Source: Candidatus Aquabacterium excrementipullorum (GTDB taxonomy: Bacteria; Pseudomonadota; Gammaproteobacteria; Burkholderiales; Burkholderiaceae_C). Taken from it: a stretch of 61,155 nt of DNA. The stretch covers positions 1 through 61,155 of the forward strand of contig DXIO01000081.1 in the NCBI GenBank assembly GCA_019112875.1. Direction: 5' to 3'. A program made the translations under genes and the position numbers. The notes beneath the pieces are model-generated. The model saw only the letters and a list, made by a program, of their open reading frames with translations. It ran no database searches and was not told where the DNA came from. Below are positions 27,971-59,674 of this stretch, piece after piece (positions within the stretch are counted from its first letter, which is position 1; each line of letters starts with the position of its first letter).

Positions 27971-28342
27971 TGGTGGAGCCGGGGGGAATTGAACCCCCGT
28001 CCGCAAGCCATCAACAGGTAGATCTACATGTTTAGCTGGCTGATTTGGATCTCGTGGTCACCGTCGCGCAGCAGCACGCTACGGAGCCCACCAGTCACTT
28101 GATCTCGACCTGAGCGGAGTGACCCCGCTCAAGCCCAGCCTATGTGAATAACCTCGCGGCCCTTGTCTTGCGACTCAAGCCCAGCCCATAGGCCAGCTGT
28201 TGCGAGGCTCACCGGTATTAAGCGGCGAGTGCGAACGATTCGTCGTTGGCAGTTAGTTTGTTTCCAGATGGATTTACGAGCTCACTGGCGCTCGACATGC
28301 ACTATCCCGCATCCGCACCCACGTCGAAACCAAGTCGGCCCC
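27971..28342 (-). ncRNA. ssrA: tmRNA
   Basis: About 372 nt. The 5' end GGGGCCGACTTGGTTTCGAC (near 28342) and the 3' end, with a T-arm-like GGTTCAATTCCCCCCGGCTC (at 27976-27995) and encoded CCA at 27971-27973, form the tRNA-like domain. The tag reading frame at 28218-28250 encodes ANDESFALAA and TAA, of the type found in beta-proteobacteria. It rescues stalled ribosomes and marks the nascent chain for proteolysis with SmpB. A -10-like TACAAT (complement of 28359-28364) lies upstream; no convincing -35 is seen. The 3' end borders an accessory gene pocket, and ssrA 3' ends are common integration sites. Confidence 0.96.
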
Positions 28343-42492: not shown

Positions 42493-43683
42493 TCAGCCCA
42501 GCAGCGAGGGCACCAGCCCGGCCAGGGCCTGGCGCTGGCTCACGGCCTTGCCCTGCAGCACGAAGCCCAGCAGTTGCTCGGGGTTGGCCGTGGACAAGAA
42601 CCTGGCCTCGATGGCTTCGTCGCTGCTGACCACCTGCCATTGGCCTTCGGCGCGGGCCGGGGGCGGGCACACCACGGTGGGCCAGGCGGGCGTCTTGACG
42701 ACCACGGGCATGGCCGGGTAGGCCACGGGGGTGGGCTTGCCGGACAGCGTGGCCGCCAGCGCGCGGGCCTGCTGCATCAGCGGCATCACGTAGGGCAGGC
42801 AGTGGCCATCGACCTCGGCGCAATCGCCCAGGGCGTACACGTGGGCGCGGTTGGTGGCCAACTGGCGATCGACCATGATGCCCTGGCCGGTGAGGATGCC
42901 GGCCTCGGCGGCCAGGTGCGTGCGCGGGCGCAGGCCCACGGCCGACAGCACCAGATCGGCTTCGACGGTGCTGCCGTCGGTGAGCGTGAGCACCAGGCCC
43001 CCTTGTCCTTGAGCACCACGGTTCACGGCCGACACGCCCACGCCGAAGCGGAACGTGGCGCCACCGGCTTCCAGCTTGGCCTGCAGGCGGGCGCTGGCTT
43101 CGGGCGGCAGCAGGCGGGGCAGGGCGCGGTCGGCCAGGTCGAACACCGTGGGCTGGATCTCGCGGGCCAGCAGGTCGTTGGCGAACTCGCAACCGATCAA
43201 GCCGGCGCCCAGGATGGCCACGCGCTTGGCGGGCTGACCGCCAGCGGCCGTGTCCAGGGCTTCGGCGAAGCGGGCGAAATCGTCCAGGTCGTTGACGGAC
43301 AGCACGGTGTCGGCCGCATCGCCCTGGATGGGCAGGCGCAGCGGATCAGCGCCCAGGGCCAGCACCAGGTCACGGTAGGGCAGCACCTCGCCATCGGCCA
43401 GGGTGATGGTCTGCGCGGCGGTGTCGATGGCCTGCACGCCGGTGTTGGAGACGATGCGGGCGTTGATCTCGGCGGCCATCTTGGCGGCGTCCTTCATCAC
43501 CAGCGTGGCGGGCGTCTTCTTGCTGGCCAGGGCGTTGGAGAGCATGGGCTTGGAGTAGAAGCCGGCCGCATCACGGCTGACCACCACCAGGGGCACCTCG
43601 GCGTCGAGCTTTCGCAACTCGCGCGCCACGTTGTAGCCGGCCAGGCCGGAGCCGACCACCACCACTGCATTGCCAGAAGACAT
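42493..43683 (-). CDS. rubB: Rubredoxin:NAD(P)+ reductase (FAD-dependent)
   Basis: A 396-residue flavoprotein. FAD-binding VVVVGSGLAGYNVARELRK at the N-terminus, NAD(P)-binding AILGAGLIGCEFAND about residue 150, and the second FAD contact YALGDCAEV near 280. The C-terminal domain lacks redox cysteines, as in rubredoxin reductases. It passes electrons from NAD(P)H to rubredoxin, encoded 14 bp upstream. No alkane hydroxylase (alkB) or rubrerythrin gene is in the window, so the final acceptor is unknown; oxygen-stress reductases and hydroxylases are the usual choices. Confidence 0.93.
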   Translation of the reverse strand: MSSGNAVVVVGSGLAGYNVARELRKLDAEVPLVVVSRDAAGFYSKPMLSNALASKKTPATLVMKDAAKMAAEINARIVSNTGVQAIDTAAQTITLADGEVLPYRDLVLALGADPLRLPIQGDAADTVLSVNDLDDFARFAEALDTAAGGQPAKRVAILGAGLIGCEFANDLLAREIQPTVFDLADRALPRLLPPEASARLQAKLEAGGATFRFGVGVSAVNRGAQGQGGLVLTLTDGSTVEADLVLSAVGLRPRTHLAAEAGILTGQGIMVDRQLATNRAHVYALGDCAEVDGHCLPYVMPLMQQARALAATLSGKPTPVAYPAMPVVVKTPAWPTVVCPPPARAEGQWQVVSSDEAIEARFLSTANPEQLLGFVLQGKAVSQRQALAGLVPSLLG

Positions 43684-43697
43684 CGTGCTTGCCTCGC

Positions 43698-43862
43698 TCA
43701 GATCTCGATCATTTCGAAGTCGCTCTTGCCGACGCCGCAGTCAGGGCACTCCCAGGTGTCGGGCACGTCGGCCCACAGGGTGCCGGGGGCGATGCCGTCT
43801 TCGGGACGGCCCTGGGCTTCGTCATACACAAAACCGCAAACAACGCACTGGAAGGTCTTCAT
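43698..43862 (-). CDS. rubA: Rubredoxin
   Basis: A 54-residue one-iron electron carrier. Both CxxC knuckles are present: [10 protein letters not shown] near the N-terminus and [11 protein letters not shown] near the C-terminus, with the conserved [11 protein letters not shown]. The start is at 43862 and the stop at 43698-43700. There is no clear Shine-Dalgarno sequence before the ATG. It is followed after 14 bp by the reductase gene on the same strand, forming a rubAB unit. Confidence 0.95.
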
Positions 43863-44396
43863 GGGGGAAATCGGATCAAAAGTGGGGCTGAATTCTGAAG
43901 TATCGCAGCTTGCATGACGAGCTTTCGCGGCGTCACGAGGGGCGAAAGCGCGTCAACAAGGCATCCTGGGGTTAAGTGTTTTCCCTAGGCGACACCGGGG
44001 GGCGTCCTCTCTATCGTTGCTGAACAAACAAGGGGTCAATCCCCTTTCTCAGGGGTGAAGTTCCTCATCAGGAGGCGATCGGGTATGAATCCGCTTTGTT
44101 GCACGCCGTGCCGCAGCAGTACCCCCCTTCTGGCGGTTGTTCAGCCAGCCTGCGCGTTCGTAACCGTCGAGCAACACGGCCCGCCCCGAGGGCGACCGTG
44201 CGCAGCGGCCTAGCGCGCTGAAACCGCCCACGCCTTGCCGGCGTGGTGCCTTCCCTTCCCTTCTCTTTCTTTTCTCCGTCCCCAGCAGTCAGCGTGGCGA
44301 GCGTCCGCCGGTGCGTGCCTGCGCGCGCCCGGCGCACGGCCTCCGGCATGGCGGCGTGGAGTGCTTTCCCCCAAACACGAAGATCAAGGCCACCCC
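43863..44396. other. 534-bp divergent regulatory region upstream of the autotransporter
   Basis: No convincing gene is seen here; short frames on both strands lack ribosome-binding sites. It should carry the rubA promoter and the promoter and leader of the surface-protein block. Visible structure: a stem AAGGGG (44030-44035) with CCCCTT (44041-44046), and an imperfect dyad around TTTTCCCTAGGC near 43979-43990 that could be a regulator site. No riboswitch consensus was recognised. Confidence 0.4.
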
Positions 44397-47300
44397 ATGA
44401 ACCAGAACATCTACCGTCTTGTATGGAGCCGCCATGCCGGCTGCCTTGTCGCCGTGGCCGAGACAGCCTCTGGGCACGGCAGGCCCGGGGTGGCGGTCAC
44501 GCGGCTGACCGCGGCCATTGCGGGCGCGATGCTGACACTCGCAGCCGAACAGGCGGGCGCGGTGGGCGCGTGTGGGGTGGTGTCGAGCAACACGACCCAG
44601 TCGAGTTCCGTGGCGGGCCCGTGCGAGATCACGACAGGGGCGAATCTCACCGTGACGGGCACCGTGAATGGCAGCACGGGGCATGCCGTGATCGTGAACA
44701 CCGGCTCGGCGGCGGGGACGCTGTCCAACAGCGGCACGCTGACCTCGGCCATGAACTCGGGCTCCACCGTCCAGATCAACGGCACGCTCAGCGGTGGCCT
44801 GCTCAACCAGGGGGTGATCAGCGAAACAGGTGGTGGCAATCACCAGGCTGTCCAGTTCAACCATGGCGTGCTGCTGGGGGGCATCAACAATGGCAGCACT
44901 GGCACCATATCCAGCGGGCAGACGGCCATCCGCATCCTGTCGACCTCGTTCACGGGCGACATCAGCAACAGCGGGCTGATCACGGGCACCTACTTCGGGA
45001 TCACTTTCAACACCTCGGACATCCAGGGCAACCTGATCAACACGGGTACGTTGCACGGGGCCAGCAGCCTGCTCTCGTCGACCATCATCGGGTCGGTGGT
45101 CAACAGCGGCACCATGGTGTCCGAGTACTCCACGCTGAGCCTGGGCGGTGGCGGCATCACCGGCGGGCTGACCAACACGGGCACCATCATCAGCAACAAC
45201 GCCAGCTCCAGCAGCCATCCGGCGGCGCTGCTGGTGGGGGGCTCGTCCACGCTCAGCGGCGGCGTCACCAACTCGGGGGTGATCTCGGGCACGGCCGGGT
45301 CCTTGGGCCTCTCGGTCTCTGATGGTGCACTGGTCGGGGGGGTGAAGAACCTGACGGGCGGCACGATCAGTGGCGCCTCGGGCCTGTACGTGGGCGGTGC
45401 CGCCACCGACTACGCCTACAGCAGCAGCTCGCCGGCGACGCCGGTTGCAGGCATCGGCACGCTCACGGGGGGCATCACCAACAGCGGCCACATCATCGGC
45501 ACGGCGGGCTCCGGCATCGTGCTCGACGGGGGGCTGGTGGAGGGCGGTGTGCACAACCTGGCCGGCGCGACGATCTCCGGGTCGCAGCACGGCATCGAGC
45601 TGCGCTCACGCACCTTGACGCTGTACGCCTATGGATCGAGCACCGGCTCGTCGTCCACGATCACGCTCACGAGCAACCCCGTGCACAGCACACTGACCGG
45701 TGGCATCACCAACAGCGGGCTGATCCAGGGGGGCGCCAGCTATTCGGGCATCTACGGTGATGCGGCCACGATCACCGAGGGCATCGACAACAGCGGCACG
45801 ATCATCGGTGGCACGGGCCTCATGCTCAAGAACGGGTCGACGCTGAGTGGCGGGCTCATGAACCGGGCCAGTGGCACGATCATCGGCACCAACGGGCCGG
45901 CGGTGTACCTGCTGTCGGGCGTTTCCGTGTCGGGCGGGCTGACCAACCAGGGCCTCATCGACGGCGGCGTGGAGCTCGACGACACCCTCATCGACACCAT
46001 CACCAATGACACCACGGGGGTGATCGTGGGCGGTGATGGGCTGGACCTGGGCGACACCCGCGTGAGCGGCAATGTGAGCAACCTGGGCAGGATCCTGAGC
46101 AGTGGCGACGGGGTCAGCCTGTCCAATGTCACCATCGGTGGCAATTTCCTCAATGCGGCTGGCGCCACGATCACGGGCCTGAACGGTCATGGCCTGGACC
46201 TGGACAGCGCGACGATCACCGGGGGGCTGACCAATGCCGGCACCATCTCGGGCACCGACAACGGCATCTTCTTCGATGGCGACGCGGCATTCAACCTGGT
46301 CAACACGGGGCGCATCGAGGGCGGCAGCACCGCAGGCATCGAGTTCTCCTACGGCGAATGGGCCGGCAGCCTGACCAACTCCGGCACGATCAGCGGCCCC
46401 ACGGCCGGCCTGTACATCTGGGAGTACTACACGCTGTCGGGCGACATCACCAACAGCGGTCTGATCGAGGGCACTGGCGGGTCCTACGGCGACGGCATCT
46501 TCCTGGAATCGAGCGCCACCGTCACCGGCAGGATCCTCAACCAGGCGGGCGGACGCATCGCGGGCGTCAGGAGCGGCATTGACGTGACCGATGGCTCCAC
46601 GATCGCGGGCGGCATCAGCAACAGCGGCACGATCAGCGGCACGGCAGGAGCGGGCATCGCCATCGACGATGCGCTGGTGGGCGGTGTGAGCCTGAGTGGC
46701 GCCGCGCTGGTCAACGACGCGACGGGGGTGATCTCGGGCAACACCGGCATCTCCATCAGCAGCGACGGCACCGTGACAGGGGGCATCGTCAACAGTGGCC
46801 GCATCGCAGGCACCACGGCCTCGGTGCGCCTGCTTAACAGCAGCGATCCCTTCACGGTGACCAATACAGGCACCCTGGATGGCGCGGCCGACATCGGCAT
46901 CAACACGCTGAACCTCGATGGCGCGAACAGCCGTGTGATCGGGGCCATCACCGGCACGGGCGGCACGGTCAATGTCAATGGCACCTTCACCAGCGAAGGG
47001 GCGATCGACGTGGGCACGGTCAACGTGGTCGGTGGCGGGGTGCTCAATCTGGGCCATGACGTGGGGGCCAGCGTGGGCGGCTTCAACAACGCGGGCACCG
47101 TGGCCGTGGGTGCCTTGGCCACGCCGCTGAACGTGAGCGGCAACTACACGCAGGCCGCCGGGGGCGTGTACCGGCTGGGCCTGAACGATGCCACGACCAA
47201 CTACGGCAAGCTGGCGGTCAGCGGCAATGTGAACCTGGCCAGCGGCACCACGGTCGATGTGCGCGTGGCCGGCAGCGCGACCATCACCAGCGGTGCCGTG

Positions 47301-48560
47301 GTGCAGGGCGTGATCACGGCGGGCGGCACGCTCACGGCCACGCCATCGGCGATCACGGTGACGGACAACAGCGCGTTCTACTCGTTCACGGCCTCCAATG
47401 CGCGCAACGCGAACCAGCTGGACCTGATCACCGCGGTGGACCCGTCCGGGGTGGTCAACTCGGTTGCCGCAAACAACAACCCGGCGGGCCTGGGGGCTGC
47501 CGGCACGCTGCAGGCCATGTTCAACGAAGGCGTGCCGCCTGCGATGCAGCCGGTGTTCGACCGGTTGACCCTGCTGACACCGGAGCAGCTGTCGGATGCC
47601 GTGTCGCAGATGCTGCCCACCCTGGTGGGGGCGGCGTCGCAGGCAGGCATCAATGCGCTGCACAGCATGAACAAGATCATCCAGGCGCGCATCGAGAGCA
47701 ACCAGGGCCTCTCGTCGGGCGATGGCGGGCGTGACCAGTACCTGTGGCTGCGCACCTTCGGAAGCTGGGCCGACCAGGATGACCACAAGGGCGTGAGCGG
47801 CTTCAAATCGCGCACGGGCGGTGTGGTGGTCGGGGTCGATGCGCCGGTCAACAACCAGGTGCGCGCTGGCGGCGCCTTCACGTATGCGCGCAGCAACGTG
47901 ACGGGCAACTCGACTGTGGCGCCCAACCACGTGGGCGTGGACACCTACGAGCTGGTGGGCTATGCCAGCTACAACCTGGATCCGCGCACGGACATCAACG
48001 TCCAGTTCGACATCGGCAAGAACCAGGCCGACAGCACGCGCCGCATCGGCCTGACGGGCGCCACGGCCGAAGCCAGCTTCGACAGCCTGGCCGTGCATGG
48101 CAGCGTGGGCATCGGGCGGGTGTACCCGCTGTCGGATCACAGCAATGTGACACCCTCGGTGCGGCTGGATTACACCCATGTGCGCACCGATGGCTACACC
48201 GAATCGGGCGCCGGGCCGCTGAACCTGCAGGTCGATGCGCAGACCTACCGCGAGTTCCTGATCACCGGGGATCTCAAGGGCTCGCACCAGTTGGAGAACG
48301 GCTTGAAGCTTGTGGGCAATGTCAGCGTGAGCTATGACACCCTCAACAAGCAGGCGCAGACCACATCGACCTTCGTGGGCGGGGGCGCGGCCTTCGTGAC
48401 CAACGGGCTGGACGTGTCGCCATGGCTTTACCGCGCGGGTGTGGGGTTGATCCAGGACACCTCGTCAGGGATCGAGTACTCTGCCCGCTACGACATCGAG
48501 GGGCGCAGTTCCGGCTACCTCAACCAGACACTGTCCGTGCGCCTGCGCTGGGCATTCTGA
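44397..48560 (+). CDS. Type Va autotransporter with long repeat passenger
   Basis: A 1387-residue secreted adhesin-type protein. The N-terminus (MNQNIYRLVW ... AVAETASGHGR) is an extended signal peptide region (ESPR), typical of large autotransporters, followed by a hydrophobic signal core to about residue 55. Residues about 95-870 are many imperfect repeats around GGITNSGTISGT, rich in Gly, Ser, Thr and Asn, expected to fold as a beta-helix. A conserved helical linker (about 1010-1100) and the autotransporter barrel (from DQYLWLRTFGSW, residue 1112, to the terminal RWAF) complete it. ATG 44397 is preferred to the upstream frame because it gives the ESPR. APS kinase and a sulfotransferase/glycosyltransferase fusion follow directly. 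Confidence 0.93.
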   Translation: MNQNIYRLVWSRHAGCLVAVAETASGHGRPGVAVTRLTAAIAGAMLTLAAEQAGAVGACGVVSSNTTQSSSVAGPCEITTGANLTVTGTVNGSTGHAVIVNTGSAAGTLSNSGTLTSAMNSGSTVQINGTLSGGLLNQGVISETGGGNHQAVQFNHGVLLGGINNGSTGTISSGQTAIRILSTSFTGDISNSGLITGTYFGITFNTSDIQGNLINTGTLHGASSLLSSTIIGSVVNSGTMVSEYSTLSLGGGGITGGLTNTGTIISNNASSSSHPAALLVGGSSTLSGGVTNSGVISGTAGSLGLSVSDGALVGGVKNLTGGTISGASGLYVGGAATDYAYSSSSPATPVAGIGTLTGGITNSGHIIGTAGSGIVLDGGLVEGGVHNLAGATISGSQHGIELRSRTLTLYAYGSSTGSSSTITLTSNPVHSTLTGGITNSGLIQGGASYSGIYGDAATITEGIDNSGTIIGGTGLMLKNGSTLSGGLMNRASGTIIGTNGPAVYLLSGVSVSGGLTNQGLIDGGVELDDTLIDTITNDTTGVIVGGDGLDLGDTRVSGNVSNLGRILSSGDGVSLSNVTIGGNFLNAAGATITGLNGHGLDLDSATITGGLTNAGTISGTDNGIFFDGDAAFNLVNTGRIEGGSTAGIEFSYGEWAGSLTNSGTISGPTAGLYIWEYYTLSGDITNSGLIEGTGGSYGDGIFLESSATVTGRILNQAGGRIAGVRSGIDVTDGSTIAGGISNSGTISGTAGAGIAIDDALVGGVSLSGAALVNDATGVISGNTGISISSDGTVTGGIVNSGRIAGTTASVRLLNSSDPFTVTNTGTLDGAADIGINTLNLDGANSRVIGAITGTGGTVNVNGTFTSEGAIDVGTVNVVGGGVLNLGHDVGASVGGFNNAGTVAVGALATPLNVSGNYTQAAGGVYRLGLNDATTNYGKLAVSGNVNLASGTTVDVRVAGSATITSGAVVQGVITAGGTLTATPSAITVTDNSAFYSFTASNARNANQLDLITAVDPSGVVNSVAANNNPAGLGAAGTLQAMFNEGVPPAMQPVFDRLTLLTPEQLSDAVSQMLPTLVGAASQAGINALHSMNKIIQARIESNQGLSSGDGGRDQYLWLRTFGSWADQDDHKGVSGFKSRTGGVVVGVDAPVNNQVRAGGAFTYARSNVTGNSTVAPNHVGVDTYELVGYASYNLDPRTDINVQFDIGKNQADSTRRIGLTGATAEASFDSLAVHGSVGIGRVYPLSDHSNVTPSVRLDYTHVRTDGYTESGAGPLNLQVDAQTYREFLITGDLKGSHQLENGLKLVGNVSVSYDTLNKQAQTTSTFVGGGAAFVTNGLDVSPWLYRAGVGLIQDTSSGIEYSARYDIEGRSSGYLNQTLSVRLRWAF
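44690..47010 (+). repeat. Degenerate coding repeats of the autotransporter passenger
   Basis: Imperfect tandem units of roughly 50-130 bp carrying variants of GGCATCACCAACAGCGG and GGCACGATCAGCGGC, encoding GGITNSG and GTISG. They vary in length and sequence, so this is an old protein repeat rather than a simple satellite. It is a likely place for recombination and length variation between strains. Confidence 0.75.
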
Positions 48561-48572
48561 AAGGGAACAGGC

Positions 48573-49208
48573 ATGAAGCACACCCCCTCATGGATCCCGC
48601 CGCGCGGTGCGGCGCACCTCACCGCCGTGTCGCACCGTGTCGATGCCGGCCAGCGCGCGCAGCGCCATGGCCATGGCGGCGGCGTGATCTGGCTGACAGG
48701 GTTGTCGGGCGCGGGCAAGTCGACCCTGGCGATGGCGCTGGAGGCGCAGTTGCTGCAGCAAGGTTATGCCTGCTACACGCTGGACGGCGACAACGTGCGC
48801 CGGGGCCTCAATGCCAACCTGGGTTTCTCGCCGGCGGACCGGTCCGAGAACATCCGGCGCATCGGCGAGGTGGCCGCCCTGTTCGCCGATGCCGGGCTGG
48901 TCTGCATCACGGCCTTCATCTCGCCTTACAAGGCTGATCGGGCCACGGCGCGGGCCGCGGCGCAGGCCATTGGCACGCACTTCGCCGAGGTGCATGTGGC
49001 GGCCGATCTGCCCACCTGCGAAGCCCGCGATCCCAAGGGCCTGTACCGCCAGGCGCGGGCCGGCCAACTGCGCGAGTTCACCGGCATCGACGCGCCTTAC
49101 GAACCGCCTGAATCGGCGGACCTAGTGCTGGGGGCCGACCACGAAAGCGAGGCAGACAGCCTGGCGCGCCTGGTGGCCTTCGTGACCAGCCGGCATCCGA
49201 TGTGTTGA
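48573..49208 (+). CDS. cysC: Adenylylsulfate (APS) kinase
   Basis: A 211-residue enzyme that phosphorylates APS to PAPS, the universal sulfate donor. Walker [10 protein letters not shown] at residues 43-51, [16 protein letters not shown], the serine motif FISPYKADR, and [19 protein letters not shown] with PYEPP are all intact. It starts 12 bp after the autotransporter stop and overlaps the next gene's GTG start. No ATP sulfurylase (cysDN/sat) or PAPS reductase (cysH) gene is adjacent, so this copy looks devoted to sulfation rather than cysteine synthesis. The N-terminal 35 residues are His/Arg-rich. Confidence 0.95.
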
Positions 49209-52200
49209 GCAGCGCCCTCGTCACAGAACCCTCCCTGGTCACCTTGGCCCAGGCCCAGGCCCATGAACGGGCCGGCCAATGGGTGCAGGCCGAATCCGCC
49301 TACCGTGCGTTGGTGGCGGCGAATCCCCGCTGCCACGAGGCCTGGCACGCGCTGGGCCTGCTGGCCTTCAATGCCGGCCGTGTGCCACAGGCGATCCAAT
49401 GCATCGAAGAGGCCATTGCCGCCAATCCGGGCGTGGCGCTGTACCACCGCAACGTGGGCGAGATGTACCGGCGTCTGGGCCAACTGGACAAGGCCACCAC
49501 CGCCGGGCTGCGGGCCACGCGCCTGGCCCCTTGCGACCTGGACGCCCACTACAACCTGGCGCTGGCCTACTCGGATGCACGAGACCACGAGCGCGCGGTG
49601 CAGGGCTACCGCCAGGCGCTGACCATTCGGCCTGACCACGGCCTGTCATGGAACAACCTGGGATCCGCCCTGGGGCAGCAAGGGGCCGAGCACGAGGCGC
49701 TCCAGGCCTACCTGCGCGCCATCGAACTCAACCCGCGGCATGCAGAGGCCCAGTGCAATGCGGGGGCTGTCTACGTGGAGCAAGGCCAGCTGGCGCTGGC
49801 CCGGGCGTGTTTCGAGGCCGCCATCGCGGTGCGTCCGGAGTTCATCGAGGCGCACTACAACCTCAGTTCGCTCAAGACCTACACGCCTGCCGATTCGCAG
49901 CTGGCCATGATGGAAGCCCTGTACATCCGCCGCGAACAGCTCAGCCCGCACCTGCGCATCCGGCTGGGCTTCGCGCTGGGCAAGGCGCTTGAAGACATCG
50001 GCCAGCACGACCGGGCCTTCGCCGCATACGAAGAAGGCAACCGGTTGCAGCATGCGCAGATGCCGGTGGACGAGCAGGCCGCCGACGCACTGCTGGACCG
50101 CCTGCTGGCGGTGTTCGATGCCGATTTCTTCGAGGCCCGGCGCGCGTGGCGCGGTGCGCAGGCGCCGGGGCGCACACCGATCTTCATCGTCGGCATGCCC
50201 CGCTCGGGCACCACCTTGCTCGAGCAGATCCTGAGCAGCCATCCGGGTGTGCACGGTGCTGGCGAACTCAAGGACCTGAACGAGAGCATCGACCAGGCCA
50301 CCGGTGCCGGGCCCGGCCGCTCGTTCGTGGACGGCGTGGCGGCCCTGGCCGAGGCCGACATGCGGCGCTTGGGCCTGGCCTACCTCGACCGCCTGTGGGC
50401 ACGCTCGCCAGGCAGCTGCTGCATCACCGACAAGATGCCTGGCAACTTCTTCTACCTGGGCCTCATCCACCTGGCCTTGCCTGGCGCACGCATCATCCAC
50501 GCCATGCGCGATCCCATGGATTCGTGCTTCTCCTGCTATGGCCGCCTGTTCAATGACACGATGGCCTTCACCTACGACCAGCGCTCGCTGGGGCGCTACC
50601 ACGCGCGCTACCAGCGCCTGATGGCGCACTGGCACCGCGTGCTGCCACCCGGCATGATCCTGGACCTGCCTTACGAAGCCATGGTCGCCGACACGGAGGC
50701 GCAGACGAGGCGGGTGCTCGCGCACCTTGGCCTGCCGTGGGATCCGGCCTGCCTGGATTTCCACCTGAACGGACGCGTGGTCAAGACCGCCAGCGTCGCG
50801 CAGGTGCGCAAGCCCATCTACCAGACCTCGGTGGCGCGTTGGCGTCCGTTCGCGCGCCACCTGCAGCCCTTGTACGAGCTGGTCAAGGATTTCCGCCCGC
50901 AGGATGAGGCCACCGCTTTCATGGCCAGCCTGCCGCCGGTGTCGCCGGAACCTCCCAGGCCATCCATCTCCCATCCGCCGGCAGTGCGCACGCCCGCGGA
51001 GGCCCTGCACCTGGAAGGCATCGCCCACTACAAGGCCGATCGCTTCGAAGCGGCCCTCGACTGCTACAACCGCACGCTGGCCTTGCAGTCGGACTTGGCG
51101 GCGGCGCTCAACAGCCGTGGCTTCGTGCTGCAGGATATGGGCCGCCTGGAGGAGGCCCTGGCCGACTTCGAGCAGGCCGTTTCGCTGGCGCCCCAGATGG
51201 CCATGGCCCGGCTCAATCTGGGCATGGCGCAGCTCAAGCTCGGGCAGTTCGAGCAAGGCTGGGAGAACTACGAGGCCCGCTGGACAGGCGCGGCCGAATC
51301 CCAGTCCGGCCAGTTCACGCGGCCGGTCTGTGCCCTGCCGATGTGGCACGGGCTGGACGAGGCCGTGCTGCCCGATGCCGAGCGGCCCGGTGCCCGGCGC
51401 CTGCTGGTGATCACGGAACAGGGCTTCGGCGACACCTTCCAGTTCGCGCGCTATCTGCCGATGCTGGCCGAGCGGTTCGGCAAGGTGGGCTTTGCCTGTG
51501 CCGAGCCTACGCGGCGCCTGATGGACTGGTCATTCGGAGACCGGATCGTGTCGTTCACGCGCATGCCTCCCGAGTCATCCGGGTGGGACCTGCAATGTGC
51601 GCTGATGTCGCTGCCGCGCCTGTTGCGCACGCGCCTGGACACCATCCCGGCGACCATCCCCTACCTGCACGTGCCGCCGGCCGCCAGTGCCCACTGGCGC
51701 GAGCGCCTGGCACACGCCGCGCCTGGCCGTCTGCGCGTGGGCATCGCGTGGGCGGGCCGCGCCCAGCACCACCGCGATGCGCGCCGCAGCCTGCGCTTGG
51801 AGCAACTGCATCCGCTGTTCGATGACCCGCGCATCACCTGGGTCAGCCTGCAGAAATGGGCCGCCAACGACACCCGGCCCGAGGTGCCTGCCGGCATCCA
51901 ATGGCTCGACTGGACCGATGAGCTCGGTGATTTCGCCGACACGGCCGCGTTGCTGTCCGGGCTCGACCTGGTCATCTCCGTCGACTCTGCCCTGGTGCAC
52001 CTTGCTGGCGCACTGGGCCGGCCCGTGTGGATGCTCGACCGCTTCGACAACGAATGGCGCTGGTTGACTGGCCGCGAGGACAGCCCCTGGTACCCGAGCC
52101 TGCGCATTCATCGCCAGCCGCGTTTCGGCGATTGGGCGCCGGTGATCGGGCAGGTGCGCGATGCGCTGCGAGCGCTGCCCACGCCGTCTGCGCCGCATAC

Positions 52201-54349
52201 CTCCGGCCAGAGCGCCTCGCAGCGGCCAGCGCAGAAGCCGGCCCCGACCCCGGCCGTGAGCCCGGCCCTGAGCATCGACCAGGCCATGCAGCGCGCCGCC
52301 CAGCACCATGGCGCGGGGCAACTCGATCAGGCCGAGACCCTGCTGCGTGCCATCGTGCAGGCCCGGCCTGCGCATGCACAGGCCTTGCACCTGCTGGGCG
52401 TCATCGCCTACCAGACCGGTCGCCAGGCGCAAGCGCTGGAGACCATCCGCCGCGCCATCGCCATCGCCCCTGACGACGCCCTGTTCCACAGCAACCTGGC
52501 GGAAATGAACCGCCAGCTCGGACGGGCTGCCGAGGCCATCGCGCATGGCGAGCGGGCAGTGGCCCTGGCGCCTTCCATGGCCACCGCGCATTCCAACCTG
52601 GGGGTGGCCTATTTCGATGCGGGGGATGACGCCCGCGCCACGGCCTGCCATGAACGCGCGCTGGCCCTCGAGCCCAAGCTGGCCAACTCGATGAACAACC
52701 TGGGCAGCGTGGCCCGCCGCGCGCAGGACCGGGAAGGCGCCGTCACCTGGTACCGGCGGGCACTGGACGCCAATGCCGACTACCTGGAAGCGCAGTCCAA
52801 CCTGGGGGCGGTGCTGGTGGAGCTCGACCGCGCGGACGAGGCCGTGCCCGTGCTGGAGCAGGTGCTGCGGCGCCATCCCCAATACCCCGAAGCCCTGTGC
52901 AACCTGGGGCTGGCCCGCCTCAAGCAGGACCGCACCGAAGAGGGCGAAGGCCTGTTGCGGCGGGCGCTGCAACTGCGCCCCGGTTACCCCGAGGCCATGA
53001 TCGGCCTGGCGCGGGCGGTGCAGGAGCGCGACGTCCCGGAAGAGGCCGTGGCGCTGTTGCGCGAAGTGCTTCGTGAATGTCCCGACAAGGTGGAGGCCTG
53101 GTTCCTGCTCGGCATGCTGCACACCGAAATGGAAGAGCCCTCCGAGGCTGAGGCCGCCTACGACCACGCCTTGACGCTCGACCCGGATGCGGTGGATGCC
53201 TTGCTCGGCCTGGGCAACCTGCGCATGGAGCAAGGCAGGATGGACGAGGCCGAGGCCTTGCTGCACAGGGCGCTGGTGATCGACCCGGACAATGTGGGCG
53301 GACGTTTCCACCTGGCGCAGGTCCGCAAGGTCAAGGCCGACGACGAGAACCTCGTCGCGCTGGAGGCCCTGTTGGCCGGTGTCGATGCGATGAAGCCCGA
53401 GCGGCGCATCTCGCTGCACTACGCACTGGGCAAGTCCTATGACGACCTGAAGGTGTGGGACAAGGCCTTCCCGCACTACATGGAAGGCGCCCGGCTCAAG
53501 CGGGCGCGCATCGATTTCAATGCCGACGAGGATGCCGCCCGCACGCGGCGCATCGAAGACACGGTCACGGCCGACTTCATCCGGCGACTGCATGGTGCGG
53601 GCGATCCGTCCGAACTGCCGATTTTCGTGCTGGGCATGCCGCGCTCGGGCACCACGCTCACCGAGCAGATCATCGCCAGCCACCCCGAGGTGCATGGCGC
53701 GGGCGAGCTGCGCGATCTGATGGTGACCTTGCACCATGCGCCCGGCGCTTTGCAGGATGGCCCTTACCCGGAGCGCGTGGCGGGCATCGACCAGGCCACG
53801 CTCACGGCCTGGGGTGGTGAATACGTGCGGCGCCTGCAGGCCCGGGCGCCCGGCGCGCGCCGCATCACCGACAAGATGCCCGCGAACTACTTCGCCCTGG
53901 GCATGATCCCGCTGATGTTGCCTCGGGCCCGCATCATCCATGTGCGGCGCAACGCGGCCGACACCTGTGTGTCCTGCTTCACGCGGCTGTTCAACCGCCA
54001 TCAGGAATCCACGTACGAGCTGACCGAACTGGGCCGCCACTACGCCAACTACGCGCGCCTGATGGAGCATTGGCGACGCGCGCTGCCGCCCGGCAGCTTC
54101 CTGGAGGTGCAGTACGAGGACATCGTGGCCGACATGGAAGGCCAGGCACGCCGCCTGATCGACTGGTGCGGGCTGGACTGGCATGACGACTGCCTGGCTT
54201 TCCACAAGAACCAGCGCAGCATCCGCACGGCCAGCGTGGCCCAGGTGCGCCAGCCCATCTATGGCAGCTCGGTCGAGCGTTGGCGCCACTACGAGGCCTA
54301 CCTGCAGCCCCTGCTGGCCGCGCTGGGCGAGTGGGCGCCACCACGGTGA
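49202..54349 (+). CDS. Three-enzyme fusion: TPR-sulfotransferase-TPR-glycosyltransferase-TPR-sulfotransferase
   Basis: A 1715-residue cytoplasmic protein. TPR repeats (about 12-260); sulfotransferase 1 (about 325-570) with PAPS 5'-phosphosulfate loop GMPRSGTT at 331-338 and 3'-phosphate site [10 protein letters not shown] (Arg436, Ser444); TPR (596-700); a GT9/heptosyltransferase-like domain of the TPR-linked type (about 700-1000: [42 protein letters not shown]); TPR (1022-1440); sulfotransferase 2 (about 1470-1710) with GMPRSGTT at 1478-1485 and [11 protein letters not shown]. All three catalytic modules look intact. GTG 49202 overlaps the cysC stop, so translation is probably coupled. Likely substrates are the upstream autotransporter or surface glycans; this is inference. 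Confidence 0.9.
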
Positions 54350-55248
54350 GCCGGCGTGCACCATGGATGCTGCTGCTCATGGCGCTGTCGGCTTGCGCGG
54401 TGTTGCCATCTCCCGCCGAGCGGCGCGCCCATGCCGATGCCTTGGCCTCGGCGCGGGGATGGCAGGCTTCCCTGTGGTCCGCCGGCACGTTCGAGCTGCT
54501 GGCCTACACACCGCCGCTGCCTGCCGCAGGCTCTGAATCGCGCGACACGCTCACCGTCTACATCGAAGGCGATGGCCTGGCCTGGGTGACGTCATCACAG
54601 CCGTCGGGCGATCCGACGCCCCGCGCGCCGTTGGCCTTGCAGCTGGCCCTGGCCCATCCCGCAGGGCCCGCGGCCTATCTGGCCCGTCCCTGCCAGTACA
54701 CGATGCCGCACCCCGGCTCAGGCCGTGGTTGCGACGTGGCGTACTGGACGCAGCGGCGCTTCGCCCCCGAGGTCGTGCAGGCCGAATCCCTGGCTCTCGA
54801 TGCGCTCAAGCACCGGTGGTCGGCCCGCCGGCTCGTGCTGGTGGGCTACTCGGGGGGCGGCGCCGTGGCCGCCCTGCTGGCGGCCCGGCGCGATGACGTG
54901 GCCGCCCTGGTCACCGTGGCAGGCAACCTCGACCATGCCGCCTGGACACGCCTGCATGGCGTGCCACCGCTGACCGGCTCGCTCAACCCGGCCGACGAGC
55001 GGGCGGCCCTGGCCCGCATTCCCCAATGGCATCTGGTGGGCGCCGATGACCGCGTCGTGCCGCCCGCTGTCGCACAGGCCTACGCCGCCGGCTTTCCGCC
55101 AGGCCAGTCGCCGCGGGTGATGGTGCTGCCGGGCCAGGACCATGGCTGCTGCTGGGCCGCGCGATGGCCGACGCTGTGGCGTGACTTTGTTGGCATCCAG
55201 CCCAACCCCGCAGACCTTAAGATAGACGGTTCCCCATCGCGCCGCTGA
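54346..55248 (+). CDS. Lipoprotein alpha/beta-hydrolase
   Basis: A 300-residue protein. GTG 54346 overlaps the previous stop (GTGA) and opens a signal peptide with lipobox LSAC (Cys about residue 17). Catalytic triad candidates are Ser in GYSGGG, Asp in VGADDRVV and His in GQDHGCCW; the order and spacing fit an alpha/beta-hydrolase. Four Cys in the mature part may form disulfides. It is probably anchored in the periplasm or outer membrane as an esterase/acylhydrolase of unknown substrate. Being coupled to the sulfotransferase fusion gene suggests it acts on the same surface product. Confidence 0.75.
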   Translation: MSRRAPWMLLLMALSACAVLPSPAERRAHADALASARGWQASLWSAGTFELLAYTPPLPAAGSESRDTLTVYIEGDGLAWVTSSQPSGDPTPRAPLALQLALAHPAGPAAYLARPCQYTMPHPGSGRGCDVAYWTQRRFAPEVVQAESLALDALKHRWSARRLVLVGYSGGGAVAALLAARRDDVAALVTVAGNLDHAAWTRLHGVPPLTGSLNPADERAALARIPQWHLVGADDRVVPPAVAQAYAAGFPPGQSPRVMVLPGQDHGCCWAARWPTLWRDFVGIQPNPADLKIDGSPSRR

Positions 55249-55250
55249 TC

Positions 55251-57002
55251 TTGTCTGTGCTGCTTCTTCGCCTCGGCTGCCTGCCGATGTGGCTCATCCT
55301 GTGCTGGCTGGGCCTGCCCGGCGCACGCGCGTCCGCCCAGGTGGTGCCCCCCGTGTCCCTGGCGCCCGGCCAGCAGGTCGTGGCGTTGTGGCCCGCCCTG
55401 CGCTTGCTGCCCGATCCTGCGCACACGCTGACCATCGACCAGGCCCTGGCCCGGCGCGCTCAGTTCACCGCCCCGACCGGGCCCTATGCCAACCTCGGCG
55501 TGCGCCCCGACACCGTCTGGTTGCGTGCCGACATCCGTGTGCCCGCCGGCGCGCCGGCCGACTGGTGGCTCGGCATCGACTTCTTCCCGCTCGACGAGGT
55601 CGAGGTGTTCCTGGTGCGGCAGGGCAGGGTGGTGCAGCGCGCCTACCTGAGCCAGTTGCTGCCCTTCAAGGCCAAAGCCGCCCCGACGCACCAGCATGCC
55701 GCCCGGCTGGTGCTGCAGCCCGCACAGGACTACGAACTCGTGATGCGGGTGCGCAAGTACGCGCCGCTGGCCATGCTGATGCCGGCCTTCTTGCTGCGCA
55801 CCGATGCGCTGCTCGCCCGCGAGGCCTCCTTCCAGTTCTGGCAGAGCCTCATGTTCGGACTGGGACTGTGCCTCACCGTGTACGCGCTGGTGGCCGCGGT
55901 GCTCAACCGGGAGCGCTTGTACCTGTGGTTCGCGCTCTTCGCCTCCAGCCACACCATGTCATGGTTCGCCTATTTCGGCCTGGCATCGCAGCATTTCTGG
56001 CCGACCCAGGGCGGGCTCAACTCCAACGTGTCCCTGCTGTTCGCGCTGTTGATGCCGCTCAGCGGCTTCCTGTTCGTGGACCGCGCCCTGGACCTGCGCC
56101 ACAGCCACCCCCGCCTCAGCAAGAGCCTGCGCGGCATCAGCGTGCTGCTGGCGGTGCTGGGGCTGCTCTTCACCGCAGGCCTGATCGGCGAGGGCGTCAT
56201 CGGCCCCGTGATCGGGCTGCTCGGCCCCTGGCCCTTCCTGCTCATCCTGCCCCTGGCCTTGCGCCGCGGGCTCAGGCGTGACCGGCTGGCCCTGTGGGTG
56301 CTGATCGGCTGGGTGCCCCATGCCGTGGTGCTGGCCATCGGCGCCGGCCTGCACCGGGGGCACGTTCCCTGGAGCGAGTGGGACAACATCGTGCCGCAGT
56401 TGGGGGCGGCCATCGACCTGCTGGCCTGGGCCATGGTGGGCAGCCTGCGCACCAAGGATCTGCGGCGTGACGCCGCCAGGCACCGGGAGGAGCGTGACCG
56501 CCTGCTGGTGGCCGTGCAGACCGATGCGCTCACCGGCCTGGCCAACCGGCGCGGGCTGGAGCATGGCCTGCGAAGCCTGCTGGCCGAAGCGAGCCGCACG
56601 CGGATGCTGGCGCTCTATGTGATCGACCTGGACGGCTTCAAGCCCGTCAACGATCTCCATGGACACGACGTGGGGGACGAGGCCCTGGTGATGGTGGCGC
56701 AGCGCCTCAAGCAGGCCGTCCGGGCGGGTGACCTCGTGTGCCGCATCGGAGGCGACGAGTTCGTCGTGGTGGCGGCGGGCCTGCCCGATGAGCAGCAGGC
56801 CCGGCTGGTGGCCGACAAGCTGTTGGCCTGCAGCGTGAGACCCTTCGTGCTCAGCCAGGCCAGCTGCCGCGTGGGCATGACCATCGGCTATGCCATGGCC
56901 CCCTTGCATGCCACCGATGCCGACAGCCTGCTCAAGCAGGCCGATGCGGCCATGTACAAGGGCAAGCAGGCGGGCAAACAACAGGTGCGCAGAGCCGAGT
57001 AA
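55251..57002 (+). CDS. 7TMR-DISM diguanylate cyclase
   Basis: A 583-residue membrane protein. Signal sequence, a periplasmic 7TMR-DISMED2 sensor (about 30-185), seven helices (about 190-390), a short coiled coil and a GGDEF domain with the motif at residues 500-504 and an RxxD inhibitory site (RAGD, 491-494) exactly five residues before it. It should make c-di-GMP with product inhibition in response to an extracellular ligand, perhaps a carbohydrate. The start is uncertain: TTG 55251 is 2 bp after the hydrolase stop; GTG 55257 and ATG 55287 are alternatives. It links adhesin genes and exopolysaccharide genes. Confidence 0.9.
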   Translation: MSVLLLRLGCLPMWLILCWLGLPGARASAQVVPPVSLAPGQQVVALWPALRLLPDPAHTLTIDQALARRAQFTAPTGPYANLGVRPDTVWLRADIRVPAGAPADWWLGIDFFPLDEVEVFLVRQGRVVQRAYLSQLLPFKAKAAPTHQHAARLVLQPAQDYELVMRVRKYAPLAMLMPAFLLRTDALLAREASFQFWQSLMFGLGLCLTVYALVAAVLNRERLYLWFALFASSHTMSWFAYFGLASQHFWPTQGGLNSNVSLLFALLMPLSGFLFVDRALDLRHSHPRLSKSLRGISVLLAVLGLLFTAGLIGEGVIGPVIGLLGPWPFLLILPLALRRGLRRDRLALWVLIGWVPHAVVLAIGAGLHRGHVPWSEWDNIVPQLGAAIDLLAWAMVGSLRTKDLRRDAARHREERDRLLVAVQTDALTGLANRRGLEHGLRSLLAEASRTRMLALYVIDLDGFKPVNDLHGHDVGDEALVMVAQRLKQAVRAGDLVCRIGGDEFVVVAAGLPDEQQARLVADKLLACSVRPFVLSQASCRVGMTIGYAMAPLHATDADSLLKQADAAMYKGKQAGKQQVRRAE

Positions 57003-57057
57003 AGCGGCCCGCCCGCCCTACAATCTGCCCAGCTTTTTCACATGGAAGACTGGGCCC

Positions 57058-59670
57058 ATGACGCACCCGCGCCGCTCGCAAGCCTTTCGCCAGGCCCTGA
57101 CCCTGGCCTTGTCGCTCACACTGGTCGCGCCGCCCGGGGCGTTTGCGCAAAGCCTGCGCAACCTGCAAGGTGGTGGCAGCCAAGGCTACGGAGCGCCGGA
57201 TGACAGCGCCGACCAGGGCAGCCTGGGCGTGTTTTCCGGTCAAGGCTACGGCACCAGTCTGGGCCGCATGGATTCCAGCCTGTCGACCGTGCCCAACATT
57301 CGCCAGGGCCTCACGACGGACGCACTGGGCGATCGCTGGAACAACCCGGCGCAGCGCACGGGCACCAATGGCCAGGCGTATGCCTTCCCGCCCAAGCCGC
57401 TGCCTCCCAACGACTTCCAGAAGTTCGTGCTCGAAAGCACGGGCCAGGCCTTGCCGCTGTTCGGTGCCGGCTTCTTCGATGTGGCGCCCGACAGCTTCGC
57501 CCCGCAGGCCAATGCGCCCGTGTCGGGCGACTACCGCCTGGGCCCTGGCGACGAACTGCAGATCCGCGGCTGGGGATCGGTCGACATCGACGTGCGCACC
57601 GTGGTCGATCGCAACGGCCAGATCCACATCCCCCGCGTGGGCAGCATCGCCCTGAGCGGTGTCCGTGCCGCAGAGGCCGAGAGCGCCATCCGCAACGCGG
57701 TGGGCCGCTACTACAAGGACTTCCAGCTCAGCGTGACACTGGGGCAGTTGCGTGGCATCACCGTCTACGTGGTCGGCCAGGCGCGCAAGCCTGGGGCCTA
57801 CAACCTGAGCGGCGCCTCCACCCTGGTGTCGGCCCTGTTCGCCAGCGGTGGGCCCAGCGCCACGGGCAGCATGCGCCATGTGCAGGTCAAGCGCGCCGGC
57901 CGCACCGTGACCGAGCTGGATCTGTACGACTTCCTGGCCAAGGGCGACAAGTCGGCCGATATGCGCCTGCAGGATGGCGACACCATCACCATCCCGCCCG
58001 CACGCGGCTACATCGCGCTGACCGGCAAGGTGGCCACGCCGGCCGTGTACGAACTCGATGGCGACAAGGACACCATCGGCGGCGCGCTGGCGCTGGCGGG
58101 CGGGTTGCCCGTTGTGGCCGATCCGAAGCGTGCCTACCTGGAGCGCGTGGACCCGAGCAAGAAGCCCGCGCGGTCGGTCGAAAGCTTCGCGCTGGACGCG
58201 GCTGGCCTGGGCCGCCCGCTGCGCAACGGCGACCTGCTGACCGTGCTGAGCCTGAGCCCCGAGTTCGGCAACGCCGTCACCTTGCGCGGCAACGTGGACC
58301 AACCCGTGCGCGCGCCCTGGCGCGAAGGCATGAAGGTGCGTGACCTGATCCCCAGCAAGGCCTACCTGATGTCGCGGGCCTCGGTGCAGCGGCAGAACAG
58401 CGTGCTGCTGACGGAAGAAGAAAAGCAGCGCGTGGATGCCGGCTTCCAGCAGGCCCGTCGTGCGCAGGAGAACCCGGGGTTCGAGTTCGCGCCCCAGGGC
58501 GCGGCGGGTGGGATCGGCGGCAACGGCGGCAATGCCGGCGTGCCCGCCTATGGCACCGGCAAGACCCCCGTCACACGCGAGGGCGCCTCGCAGGCCGGCG
58601 ACGGGCAGGGTGCCCGTGGCGACGGGGCCGTGCGTGAAGTGCGTGACAACGCTGACACCCTGGCGCAGCGCATCGGCAACCTGGTCGATGAGATCAACCT
58701 CGAGTACGCCGTCGTCGAACGCGTGGACAGCCAAAACGTGACCGTGCAGCTGGTGCCTTTCAACCTGGGCCACGCGCTGGAGGATGCCGGCAGCGCCGAC
58801 AACCTGCCCCTGCAGCCGGGCGACATCGTCACCGTGTTCTCCGTCAACGACGTGCGCGTGCCGCAGGCGAAACGCCAGGTGTTCGTGCGGGTGGAGGGCG
58901 AAGTGCGCCGCCCCGGCATCTACCAGATGAGCCCAGGTGACGGGCTGCAGCAGTTGCTGGAGAAGGCCGGTGGCCTGACCCCCGATGCGTACCTGTTCGG
59001 CTCGGCCTTCTACCGTGAAGAGGTTCGCCAGACGCAGCAGAAGAACCTGGATCAGCTGGTGCGGCGCCTTGAAGCGCAGACGCAGACACAGCTCAGTTCG
59101 TCGGCTGCCAGCGTGTCCGCCGTCAGCGGGGATGCCTCGGGCACGGCGCGGCTTCGGCTGGAGGCCGAGGCCAAGGCGCAGCAGCAGGCCCTGCAGCGTT
59201 TGAGGAACCTCAATCCCACTGGCCGAATCATGCTGGGGCTGACACCCGACAACACTTCCCTGAACGCCTTGCCCGATGTGCGCCTGGCCAACCAGGATCG
59301 CCTGGTCATCCCATCACGCCCCGACTTCGTCTATGTGCTGGGCTCGGTCAACACGGAGGCGTCCATGCTCTGGCGGCGAGGCAATACGGTGCAGGACTAC
59401 CTCAATCAGGCGGGCTTGACGAGCGGTGCCGACAAGGACGAGTTGTTCATCATCCGGGCTGATGGCAGCGTGGCGTCGGGCAACAATGGCCGGTGGTTCA
59501 ATCGTGGCATCGCCAGCACGGCGGTCCAGCCAGGCGATCTGATCGTGCTACCCGAGAAGACGGATCATGAAAGCGCCTGGAGCGTGTTCACGCGCAATGC
59601 CAAGGACATCACGCAGATCATCTACCAGTTCAGTCTGGGTGCTGCGGCGATCAAGACGCTGAGGGATTGA
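57058..59670 (+). CDS. SLBB-domain polysaccharide export protein (Wza-like, large form)
   Basis: An 870-residue exported protein: signal peptide cleaved after GAFAQ, a Gly/Ser-rich stretch, a Poly_export domain from about residue 155 (GDYRLGPGDELQIRGWG), and several SLBB domains (GITVYVVGQARKPGAY; GYIALTGKVATPAVYEL; QVFVRVEGEVRRPGIYQM). Wza is about 380 residues, so this is the long type with extra SLBB units and a Gly-rich linker (about 480-525). It forms the periplasmic/outer-membrane channel for exopolysaccharide. It has no lipobox. A Wzz-like protein and a flippase follow at 4-bp spacings, forming an operon. Confidence 0.93.
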   Translation: MTHPRRSQAFRQALTLALSLTLVAPPGAFAQSLRNLQGGGSQGYGAPDDSADQGSLGVFSGQGYGTSLGRMDSSLSTVPNIRQGLTTDALGDRWNNPAQRTGTNGQAYAFPPKPLPPNDFQKFVLESTGQALPLFGAGFFDVAPDSFAPQANAPVSGDYRLGPGDELQIRGWGSVDIDVRTVVDRNGQIHIPRVGSIALSGVRAAEAESAIRNAVGRYYKDFQLSVTLGQLRGITVYVVGQARKPGAYNLSGASTLVSALFASGGPSATGSMRHVQVKRAGRTVTELDLYDFLAKGDKSADMRLQDGDTITIPPARGYIALTGKVATPAVYELDGDKDTIGGALALAGGLPVVADPKRAYLERVDPSKKPARSVESFALDAAGLGRPLRNGDLLTVLSLSPEFGNAVTLRGNVDQPVRAPWREGMKVRDLIPSKAYLMSRASVQRQNSVLLTEEEKQRVDAGFQQARRAQENPGFEFAPQGAAGGIGGNGGNAGVPAYGTGKTPVTREGASQAGDGQGARGDGAVREVRDNADTLAQRIGNLVDEINLEYAVVERVDSQNVTVQLVPFNLGHALEDAGSADNLPLQPGDIVTVFSVNDVRVPQAKRQVFVRVEGEVRRPGIYQMSPGDGLQQLLEKAGGLTPDAYLFGSAFYREEVRQTQQKNLDQLVRRLEAQTQTQLSSSAASVSAVSGDASGTARLRLEAEAKAQQQALQRLRNLNPTGRIMLGLTPDNTSLNALPDVRLANQDRLVIPSRPDFVYVLGSVNTEASMLWRRGNTVQDYLNQAGLTSGADKDELFIIRADGSVASGNNGRWFNRGIASTAVQPGDLIVLPEKTDHESAWSVFTRNAKDITQIIYQFSLGAAAIKTLRD

Positions 59671-59674
59671 TGCG

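Follow-up and report, generated by a model that had tools for sequence, protein, structure and literature searches.

The window examined here, a 61,155-nucleotide stretch of Candidatus Aquabacterium excrementipullorum, encodes an autotransporter (AT) followed by cysC, which specifies an adenosine 5'-phosphosulfate (APS) kinase, by a gene that joins two sulfotransferase (ST) domains and a GT9-like glycosyltransferase (GT) domain on tetratricopeptide repeat (TPR) scaffolds, and by a gene for a putative lipoprotein hydrolase. This combination is a real, recurrent, and specialised unit, and we consider it probable on sequence grounds that the unit modifies the AT passenger in the cytoplasm before export. 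A preliminary description of the first three genes, in this order, tightly spaced and with intact motifs, was confirmed by the open reading frame listing and by Pfam: cysC starts 12 bp past the AT stop codon, and the start of the fusion overlaps the end of cysC by 7 nt. That description let the operon end with the fusion at position 54349; the hydrolase gene, whose ATG lies 17 bp past the fusion stop codon, is also a member.

The recurrence of the unit was established by surveying 166 loci around TPR-ST homologues (169 including the window, minus 3 duplicates): the window, the best 80 of 418 loci from GTDB, 8 plasmid regions hand-picked from 108 matching records, and 77 kept from a further 80 regions hand-picked down class and phylum search rankings, one per genome. 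ATs were called with a barrel model grown from ATs near ST enzymes. Tried on 36 ATs that Pfam had detected elsewhere, this model gave a usable match for 29 and none for 7 (of 40 fetched AT regions, L244, L267, and L277 were excluded as linked ATs themselves and L282 for an ST match on its contig), and it sees barrels within the fetched stretch, a limit that affects large ATs starting far off. By this model, an AT lies within 3.5 kb of the ST gene in 25 of the 166 loci, namely, the window, 15 of the 80 GTDB loci, 4 of the 8 plasmid regions, and 5 of the 77 class- and phylum-search genomes. Sixteen of these ATs are at 0 to 500 bp, four at 0.5 to 1.5 kb, five at 1.5 to 3.5 kb, and none at 3.5 to 12 kb, a range that makes up 55% of the flanking sequence (25 near versus 0 far, p=2.3e-9); the density of ATs is 86 per Mb in the first 500 bp and 0 past 3.5 kb. 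Five ATs were missed by the model: three near ones, in L177 (found by Pfam), L098, and L100 (both from the record annotation), and two far ones, the second AT of L100 (5.6 kb) and a giant AT of L164 (4.1 kb). With these added, the split is 28 versus 2 (p=4e-8); L100, L164, and L177 are scored as lacking an AT in the tree and Fisher counts given below. Two further loci have neighbors with an extended signal peptide region (ESPR) and no barrel call (L165, 48.5 bits; L171, 24.8 bits against a cutoff of 25). By all evidence, five of the eight plasmid regions have an AT, one has a type 1 adhesin, and two have neither.

The same treatment of ABC ATPases, used as a negative control, gave 14 near versus 16 far (p=0.86) with no decay. 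Hydrolase homologues occur in 18 of 166 loci, 14 of them within 500 bp of the ST gene and all within 3.5 kb (18 versus 0, p=6e-7), and cysC is split 8 versus 2 (p=0.05). The hydrolase also co-occurs with the AT, which is found in 11 of 17 loci with a hydrolase versus 14 of 149 without (p=7e-7), and in all 16 full-length hydrolases, a GYSGG motif and a lipobox-like stretch with an invariant cysteine are conserved. On a FastTree tree of the 166 ST domains, in which 59 of 163 inner branches are open and near-copies raise clustering, the AT label changes 15 times versus 23.5 expected, and 0 of 500 shuffles were as low.

These data could also be explained by co-location only, with surface-structure genes gathering in variable islands and sharing no substrate. 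The TPR-ST family is indeed large and patchy (at E<=1e-40, the class search found it in 82 of its 369 genomes and the phylum search in 163 of its 398) and usually has no detected AT nearby, and 5 of the 25 linked ATs are on the strand opposite to the enzyme, the other 20 being on the same strand. We nonetheless judge this account improbable in view of the steep distance decay against a flat ABC control, the operon-type spacing, the presence of an AT in 7 of 11 loci with a fused enzyme, the pairing across Beta-, Gamma-, and Alphaproteobacteria, a Pelagibacteraceae contig, and plasmids, and the denser passenger repeat described below. The host genome adds to this: its 4.75 Mb contain exactly one PF03797 gene, and the only matches to ST domain 1 at E<=1e-20 are the two inside the fusion. 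Since this AT and the fusion are neighbors, the pairing is more than chance. Two same-genus genomes lack the enzyme yet have one AT each. A passenger search across 369 genomes found one besides the window's, in G281, which also has sulfotransferases. The closest relatives of the enzyme that were found belong to other families, with 72% identity in Paludibacterium purpuratum, 71% in an uncultured Nitrosomonadales bacterium, and 65% in Gallionella, among others; this suggests that the unit has spread horizontally.

The ST-GT-ST chain recurs in 11 loci, complete in 10 (the window, L017, L018, L020, L021, L023, L025, L026, L038, and L164) and interrupted by a contig end in L019. The hidden Markov model places an AT beside the chain in six of the 11, and the giant AT about 4 kb downstream in L164 makes a seventh. 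Near the fusion, remnants at contig ends include a truncated ESPR-like gene in L020 and a passenger-like fragment in L025, and L026 is cut on one side. The adjacency search in relatives that the preliminary description had proposed thus does not place the fusion mostly beside polysaccharide genes without an AT: Wza/Wzz-type matches occur in 1 of the 165 nonwindow loci (L182) versus ATs in 24. Wza and Wzz were the only polysaccharide markers, and the models for them were built on the copies in the window and are of uncalibrated sensitivity. These counts bear on a second alternative, in which the enzymes sulfate the exopolysaccharide or lipopolysaccharide (LPS) made from genes starting at about 57 kb and the AT is an unrelated neighbor. 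The window does have a Wza/SLBB exporter and Wzz downstream with short gaps, STs acting on Nod factors and LPS are known from bacteria (named in PMC4216712), and in the fused relative L020, a GT2-type gene follows the hydrolase. Against these stand the rarity of Wza/Wzz matches and the fold of ST domain 1, which is nearer to tyrosylprotein sulfotransferases (TPSTs) than to heparan sulfotransferases (3.9e-11 versus 5.8e-6), and we think there is little chance that a polysaccharide is the substrate.

Passengers of linked ATs share a short repeat, [IVL]-x-N-[S/T]-G, with a median of 1.36 per 100 aa in 21 linked ATs versus 0.0 in 29 unlinked ATs from nine genomes that each also bear a linked AT (p=5e-7). 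The pattern was picked after reading the window passenger, and six patterns were tried; without the window, p=8.6e-7. Within genomes, the linked AT exceeds every usable unlinked AT in nine of nine (Wilcoxon p=0.004), twice barely. The middle position of 384 repeats is Ser in 49%, Thr in 14%, and Ala in 13%. A DNA tandem-repeat finder returned nothing, the repeats being at the protein level. In the available portion of PMC4358343, heptosylation of the AT TibA was mapped by mass spectrometry to Ser-313, in an I-x-N-S-G context resembling these repeats, and to Ser-322, outside such a context. By analogy only, the Ser-313 context would make the repeat turn the prime candidate for the acceptor region; the motif may just as well be something that β-helix turns require.

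The folds of the enzyme domains favor a protein substrate. By sequence, 7 of the 10 Protein Data Bank (PDB) matches of ST domain 1 are TPSTs (best, 8w5z, 5.9e-11). An AlphaFold2 model of this domain (20-row alignment; mean predicted local distance difference test [pLDDT] score, 81) retrieved TPST family members at Foldseek ranks 1 to 13 (best E, 3.9e-11; query TM-scores, 0.62 to 0.70), followed by bacterial STF9 as the first non-TPST match (1.3e-8) and then by a heparan 3-O-sulfotransferase (5.8e-6). TPST1/TPST2 are therefore the nearest solved relatives in both sequence and fold. The loop that binds 3'-phosphoadenosine 5'-phosphosulfate (PAPS) and the conserved active-site residues of Sulfotransfer_3 are present: PRSG, Glu37, and Lys93 (A1 numbering) do not vary between the two window copies or across the 20 alignment rows, DKM is likewise constant in the 20 rows, and the PRSGTT loop, Glu37, and Lys93 align with TPST residues that we take to be catalytic. 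The domain differs from TPST1/TPST2 in having about 20% identity to them, in its fusion to TPRs, and in lacking a secretion-pathway location signal, and none of the 19 tyrosines of the window passenger has at least three acidic residues within five positions (in L031, by comparison, 12 of 61 tyrosines do, and in L060, 11 of 50). Plasmid homologues are annotated in their records as "Tetratricopeptide repeat-containing sulfotransferase family protein," and we found no function described for such proteins in the open-licence literature.

The two STs of the fusion thus stand as first described. Its GT9-like domain stands as well, with an assignment that is weak by sequence (26.4 bits, cutoff 22) and comes mainly from the fold model (pLDDT, 88). 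Foldseek ranks 1 to 23 of this model are all heptosyltransferases or GT9 proteins (TM-scores, 0.46 to 0.58), among them WaaF (2.8e-6), the GT9 protein 3tov, WaaC, and TibC (first at rank 5), consistent with a GT-B/GT9 fold; TibC is absent from the PDB sequence matches at E<=1. Of the 25 AT-linked loci, 17 have a GT homologue. This raises the possibility, a special case of passenger modification, that the sulfate sits on a GT-added sugar to form a sulfated O-glycan. The GT and both STs share one chain, and passengers of this kind are known to be heptosylated by TibC-type enzymes (PMC4358343). The other eight AT-linked loci show no GT match in the fetched stretch (L022, L031, L037, L051, L166, L167, L173, and L221, several truncated at contig ends), and the fold of ST domain 1 is nearest to protein sulfotransferases; we regard the sulfated O-glycan as possible, somewhat short of an even chance. 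We give similar, tentative credence to direct O-sulfation, in which TPR-guided TPST-like enzymes would sulfate adhesin repeat units themselves (type V here, type 1 in a parallel lineage) to yield polyanionic proteins; cysC would have been recruited to supply PAPS, and the GT and lipoprotein hydrolase would be tailoring partners.

The predicted source of PAPS in the unit is cysC. It occurs in 10 of 166 loci, including L017, L050, and L164, which have an AT, and L104, and is an optional part of the unit. CysH of the window genome has CC and CxxC motifs, which we take to mark the APS-reductase type, and a second PF01507 gene, of CysD length, adjoins it on contig C140. With a CysH of this type, sulfate assimilation in this genome should, judging from its genes, need no APS kinase.

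Several observations weigh against modification of the passenger. No AT was detected within 3.5 kb in 141 of 166 loci, some of which are ended by contig edges. Within the window's family, 10 of 199 other genomes have more distant ST homologues (35 to 54% identity); no AT and no hydrolase was found at their 11 ST loci (the stretch fetched for one of them, L293, includes an APS kinase), and PF03797 is absent from 9 of the 10 genomes. No AT was detected beside the fused relative L018, with 6 kb of flank on each side, or beside the shorter GT-ST fusion of L097 (1283 aa). The association of cysC with the AT is not significant (p=0.18), and because the window genome has a second APS kinase, on contig C49, PAPS may not come from the operon cysC alone; no sulfur genes were found among the nine other reading frames scanned near that kinase or their Pfam matches. 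Two unlinked ATs come close to a tie in repeat density with their linked neighbors, L268 (1.61 versus 1.66) and L252 (1.08 versus 1.14), and the repeat may be shared because linked ATs are kin and not mutually independent. Two compositional candidates were discarded: a tyrosine acceptor, with Tyr at 1.72% in linked versus 2.33% in unlinked passengers, the opposite direction (p=0.054), and Ser plus Thr enrichment, at 23.9 versus 21.4% over the 21 linked and 29 unlinked passengers (p=0.019), which disappears when ATs are compared within genomes (five of nine, p=0.82). From the 141 loci and the 11 family loci without an AT, we conclude that TPR-ST enzymes are not, as a family, partners of ATs and that the AT-linked loci are a specialised subset.

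In the mechanism that we infer, which extends to the passenger as substrate, the order of events, the acceptor residue, the sugar, and the role of the hydrolase, CysC would convert APS to PAPS, and the TPR arrays would grip the unfolded repeat passenger. The two TPST-like domains would sulfate it and the GT9-like domain would add a sugar, perhaps heptose; the likeliest sites lie in the vicinity of the [I/V/L]-x-N-[S/T]-G turns. The passenger so modified would then exit via Sec and its own barrel, and the lipoprotein hydrolase would act on the passenger or its substituents outside the cytoplasm. Decoration with sugar and sulfate, or with O-sulfate, before export, as initially suggested, is the best inference from AT adjacency and the enzyme folds.

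Features of the window discussed in the text (aa, amino acids)
Feature	Coordinates	Strand	Evidence or remarks
AT, type Va, 1387 aa	44397..48560	+	ATG start; ESPR signal and PF03797 barrel
ESPR signal, AT aa 1-50			PF13018, 48.7 bits
AT passenger			Gly/Ser/Thr/Asn-rich; 16 [IVL]-x-N-[S/T]-G repeats
AT β-barrel, aa 1116-1366	47742-48494	+	PF03797, 157.5 bits
cysC, APS kinase, 211 aa	48573..49208	+	ATG start; APS_kinase, 220 bits
TPR/ST/GT9-like fusion, 1715 aa	49202..54349	+	GTG start
ST domain 1, aa 326-515	50177..50746	+	Sulfotransfer_3
GT-B/GT9-like domain	51308..52204	+	Model nearest to WaaF, GT9, WaaC, TibC
ST domain 2	53600..54346	+	51% identity to domain 1; motifs intact
α/β-hydrolase	54367..55248	+	ATG start; lipobox Cys and GYSGG nucleophile motif

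The AT has the features of type Va: an ESPR/Sec signal, a repeat passenger, a PF03797 barrel, and an aromatic C terminus (RLRWAF). The fusion reads TPR, ST (319-560), TPR, GT (703-1001), TPR, ST (1466-1707), with Sulfotransfer_3 scoring 325 bits across two stretches and many TPRs by Pfam. A scan of 43600-60000 returned no promoter-like sites and 10 terminator-like sites versus 5.8 expected. Downstream, at 55251-60853, a GGDEF gene, the Wza/SLBB exporter, and Wzz follow with short gaps. The GGDEF gene (55251-57002), of the 7TMR-DISM type, stands directly past the hydrolase and ahead of the Wza/Wzz genes, and a cyclic di-GMP connection is possible. Elsewhere in the window, a tmRNA gene lies at 27971-28342 (tag ANDESFALAA).

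Other loci carry the same parts in other layouts. In L031 and L037, ST, IalB, ST, and a giant AT are separate genes, in this order; IalB (PF06776) is found between or beside ST genes in L031, L033, L035, L037, and L061, all from Alphaproteobacteria, with a giant AT in L031, L037, and L061. TPR-ST, GT, and AT are separate genes on the Enterobacteriaceae plasmids L098 and L099. On the Kluyvera ascorbata plasmid L098 (2869-15159), an AT, TPR-ST, GT, and a second AT sit amid several IS1-family transposase genes, which suggests a mobile cassette. The 2058-aa AT of L177 (11703-17876) has an OmpA domain past its barrel. A type 1 version is present on the Comamonas endophytica plasmid L104 (1-16165), where a giant cadherin-domain protein is followed by TPR-ST, TolC, ABC, HlyD, and cysC. 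L230 has the same arrangement, with no cysC in the fetched stretch, and the two are sisters on a separate, well-supported branch of the ST tree. In a zetaproteobacterium (L042, 8957-14935), a TPR-ST gene precedes one whose 1385-aa product combines a GT41 (OGT-like) domain with an FkbM methyltransferase domain, possibly another protein-modification pair. Relatives of the enzyme in Rhodanobacter (L024 and L029) stand without an AT near proteins with pro-kumamolisin and PKD domains, in L029 130 bp off and on the opposite strand. A GT8 seed was dropped from the survey for TPR contamination, having matched 168 loci.

To our knowledge, bacterial protein sulfation is known essentially from RaxST and one small peptide. 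The preliminary description knew of no sulfated AT, and we likewise found neither a sulfated AT nor an AT-sulfotransferase pairing described in the open-licence literature. The pairing is absent from the available portions of PMC3838355, PMC10932419, PMC2217521, and PMC12448352, and a term search of the accessible text of an AT review (PMC9289746) returned no word starting with "sulf." In the gene table of the part of PMC2217521 at hand, the sulfotransferase SAR11_1215 in the hypervariable region of SAR11 HTCC1062 adjoins a pilin precursor, and pilins may be another substrate class. If passengers are indeed modified by the unit, it would define a new class of modified surface protein across several proteobacterial classes and plasmids and would give a function to part of the large family of TPR-containing sulfotransferases. 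A heparin-like charge on adhesins could govern attachment, biofilm formation, or phage or metal binding.

Two known systems resemble the unit. As with TibC/AAH and their substrates TibA/AIDA-I, the transferase gene adjoins its AT, and the GT domain has a GT-B heptosyltransferase fold; TibC heptosylates the passenger of TibA (PMC4358343, available portion). TibC and AAH have an N-terminal β-barrel, whereas TPRs precede the GT domain here, and the window unit adds two sulfotransferases and an APS kinase. A four-cysteine iron finger is a feature of these bacterial autotransporter heptosyltransferases (BAHTs), according to the same portion of PMC4358343. No alignment column has Cys in 90% of the 20 GT-domain rows, and in the absence of conserved iron-finger cysteines, the domain is not a BAHT. 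Like RaxST/RaxX-RaxABC of Xanthomonas, the unit has a bacterial sulfotransferase in an operon with secretion genes, a likeness judged from descriptions and operon content, with the RaxST sequence outside the comparison. According to the available parts of the sources, RaxP and RaxQ (ATP sulfurylase and APS kinase) supply PAPS in the Rax system (PMC4216712), and its substrate is the small peptide RaxX (PMC12448352). Where Rax has a small peptide and a type 1 exporter, the window unit has a type V passenger, TPR scaffolds, a GT, and a hydrolase; elsewhere, in L104, the same type of enzyme does accompany a giant adhesin and a type 1 exporter. The unit therefore lacks defining features of both systems and would work like TibC-TibA and Rax combined.

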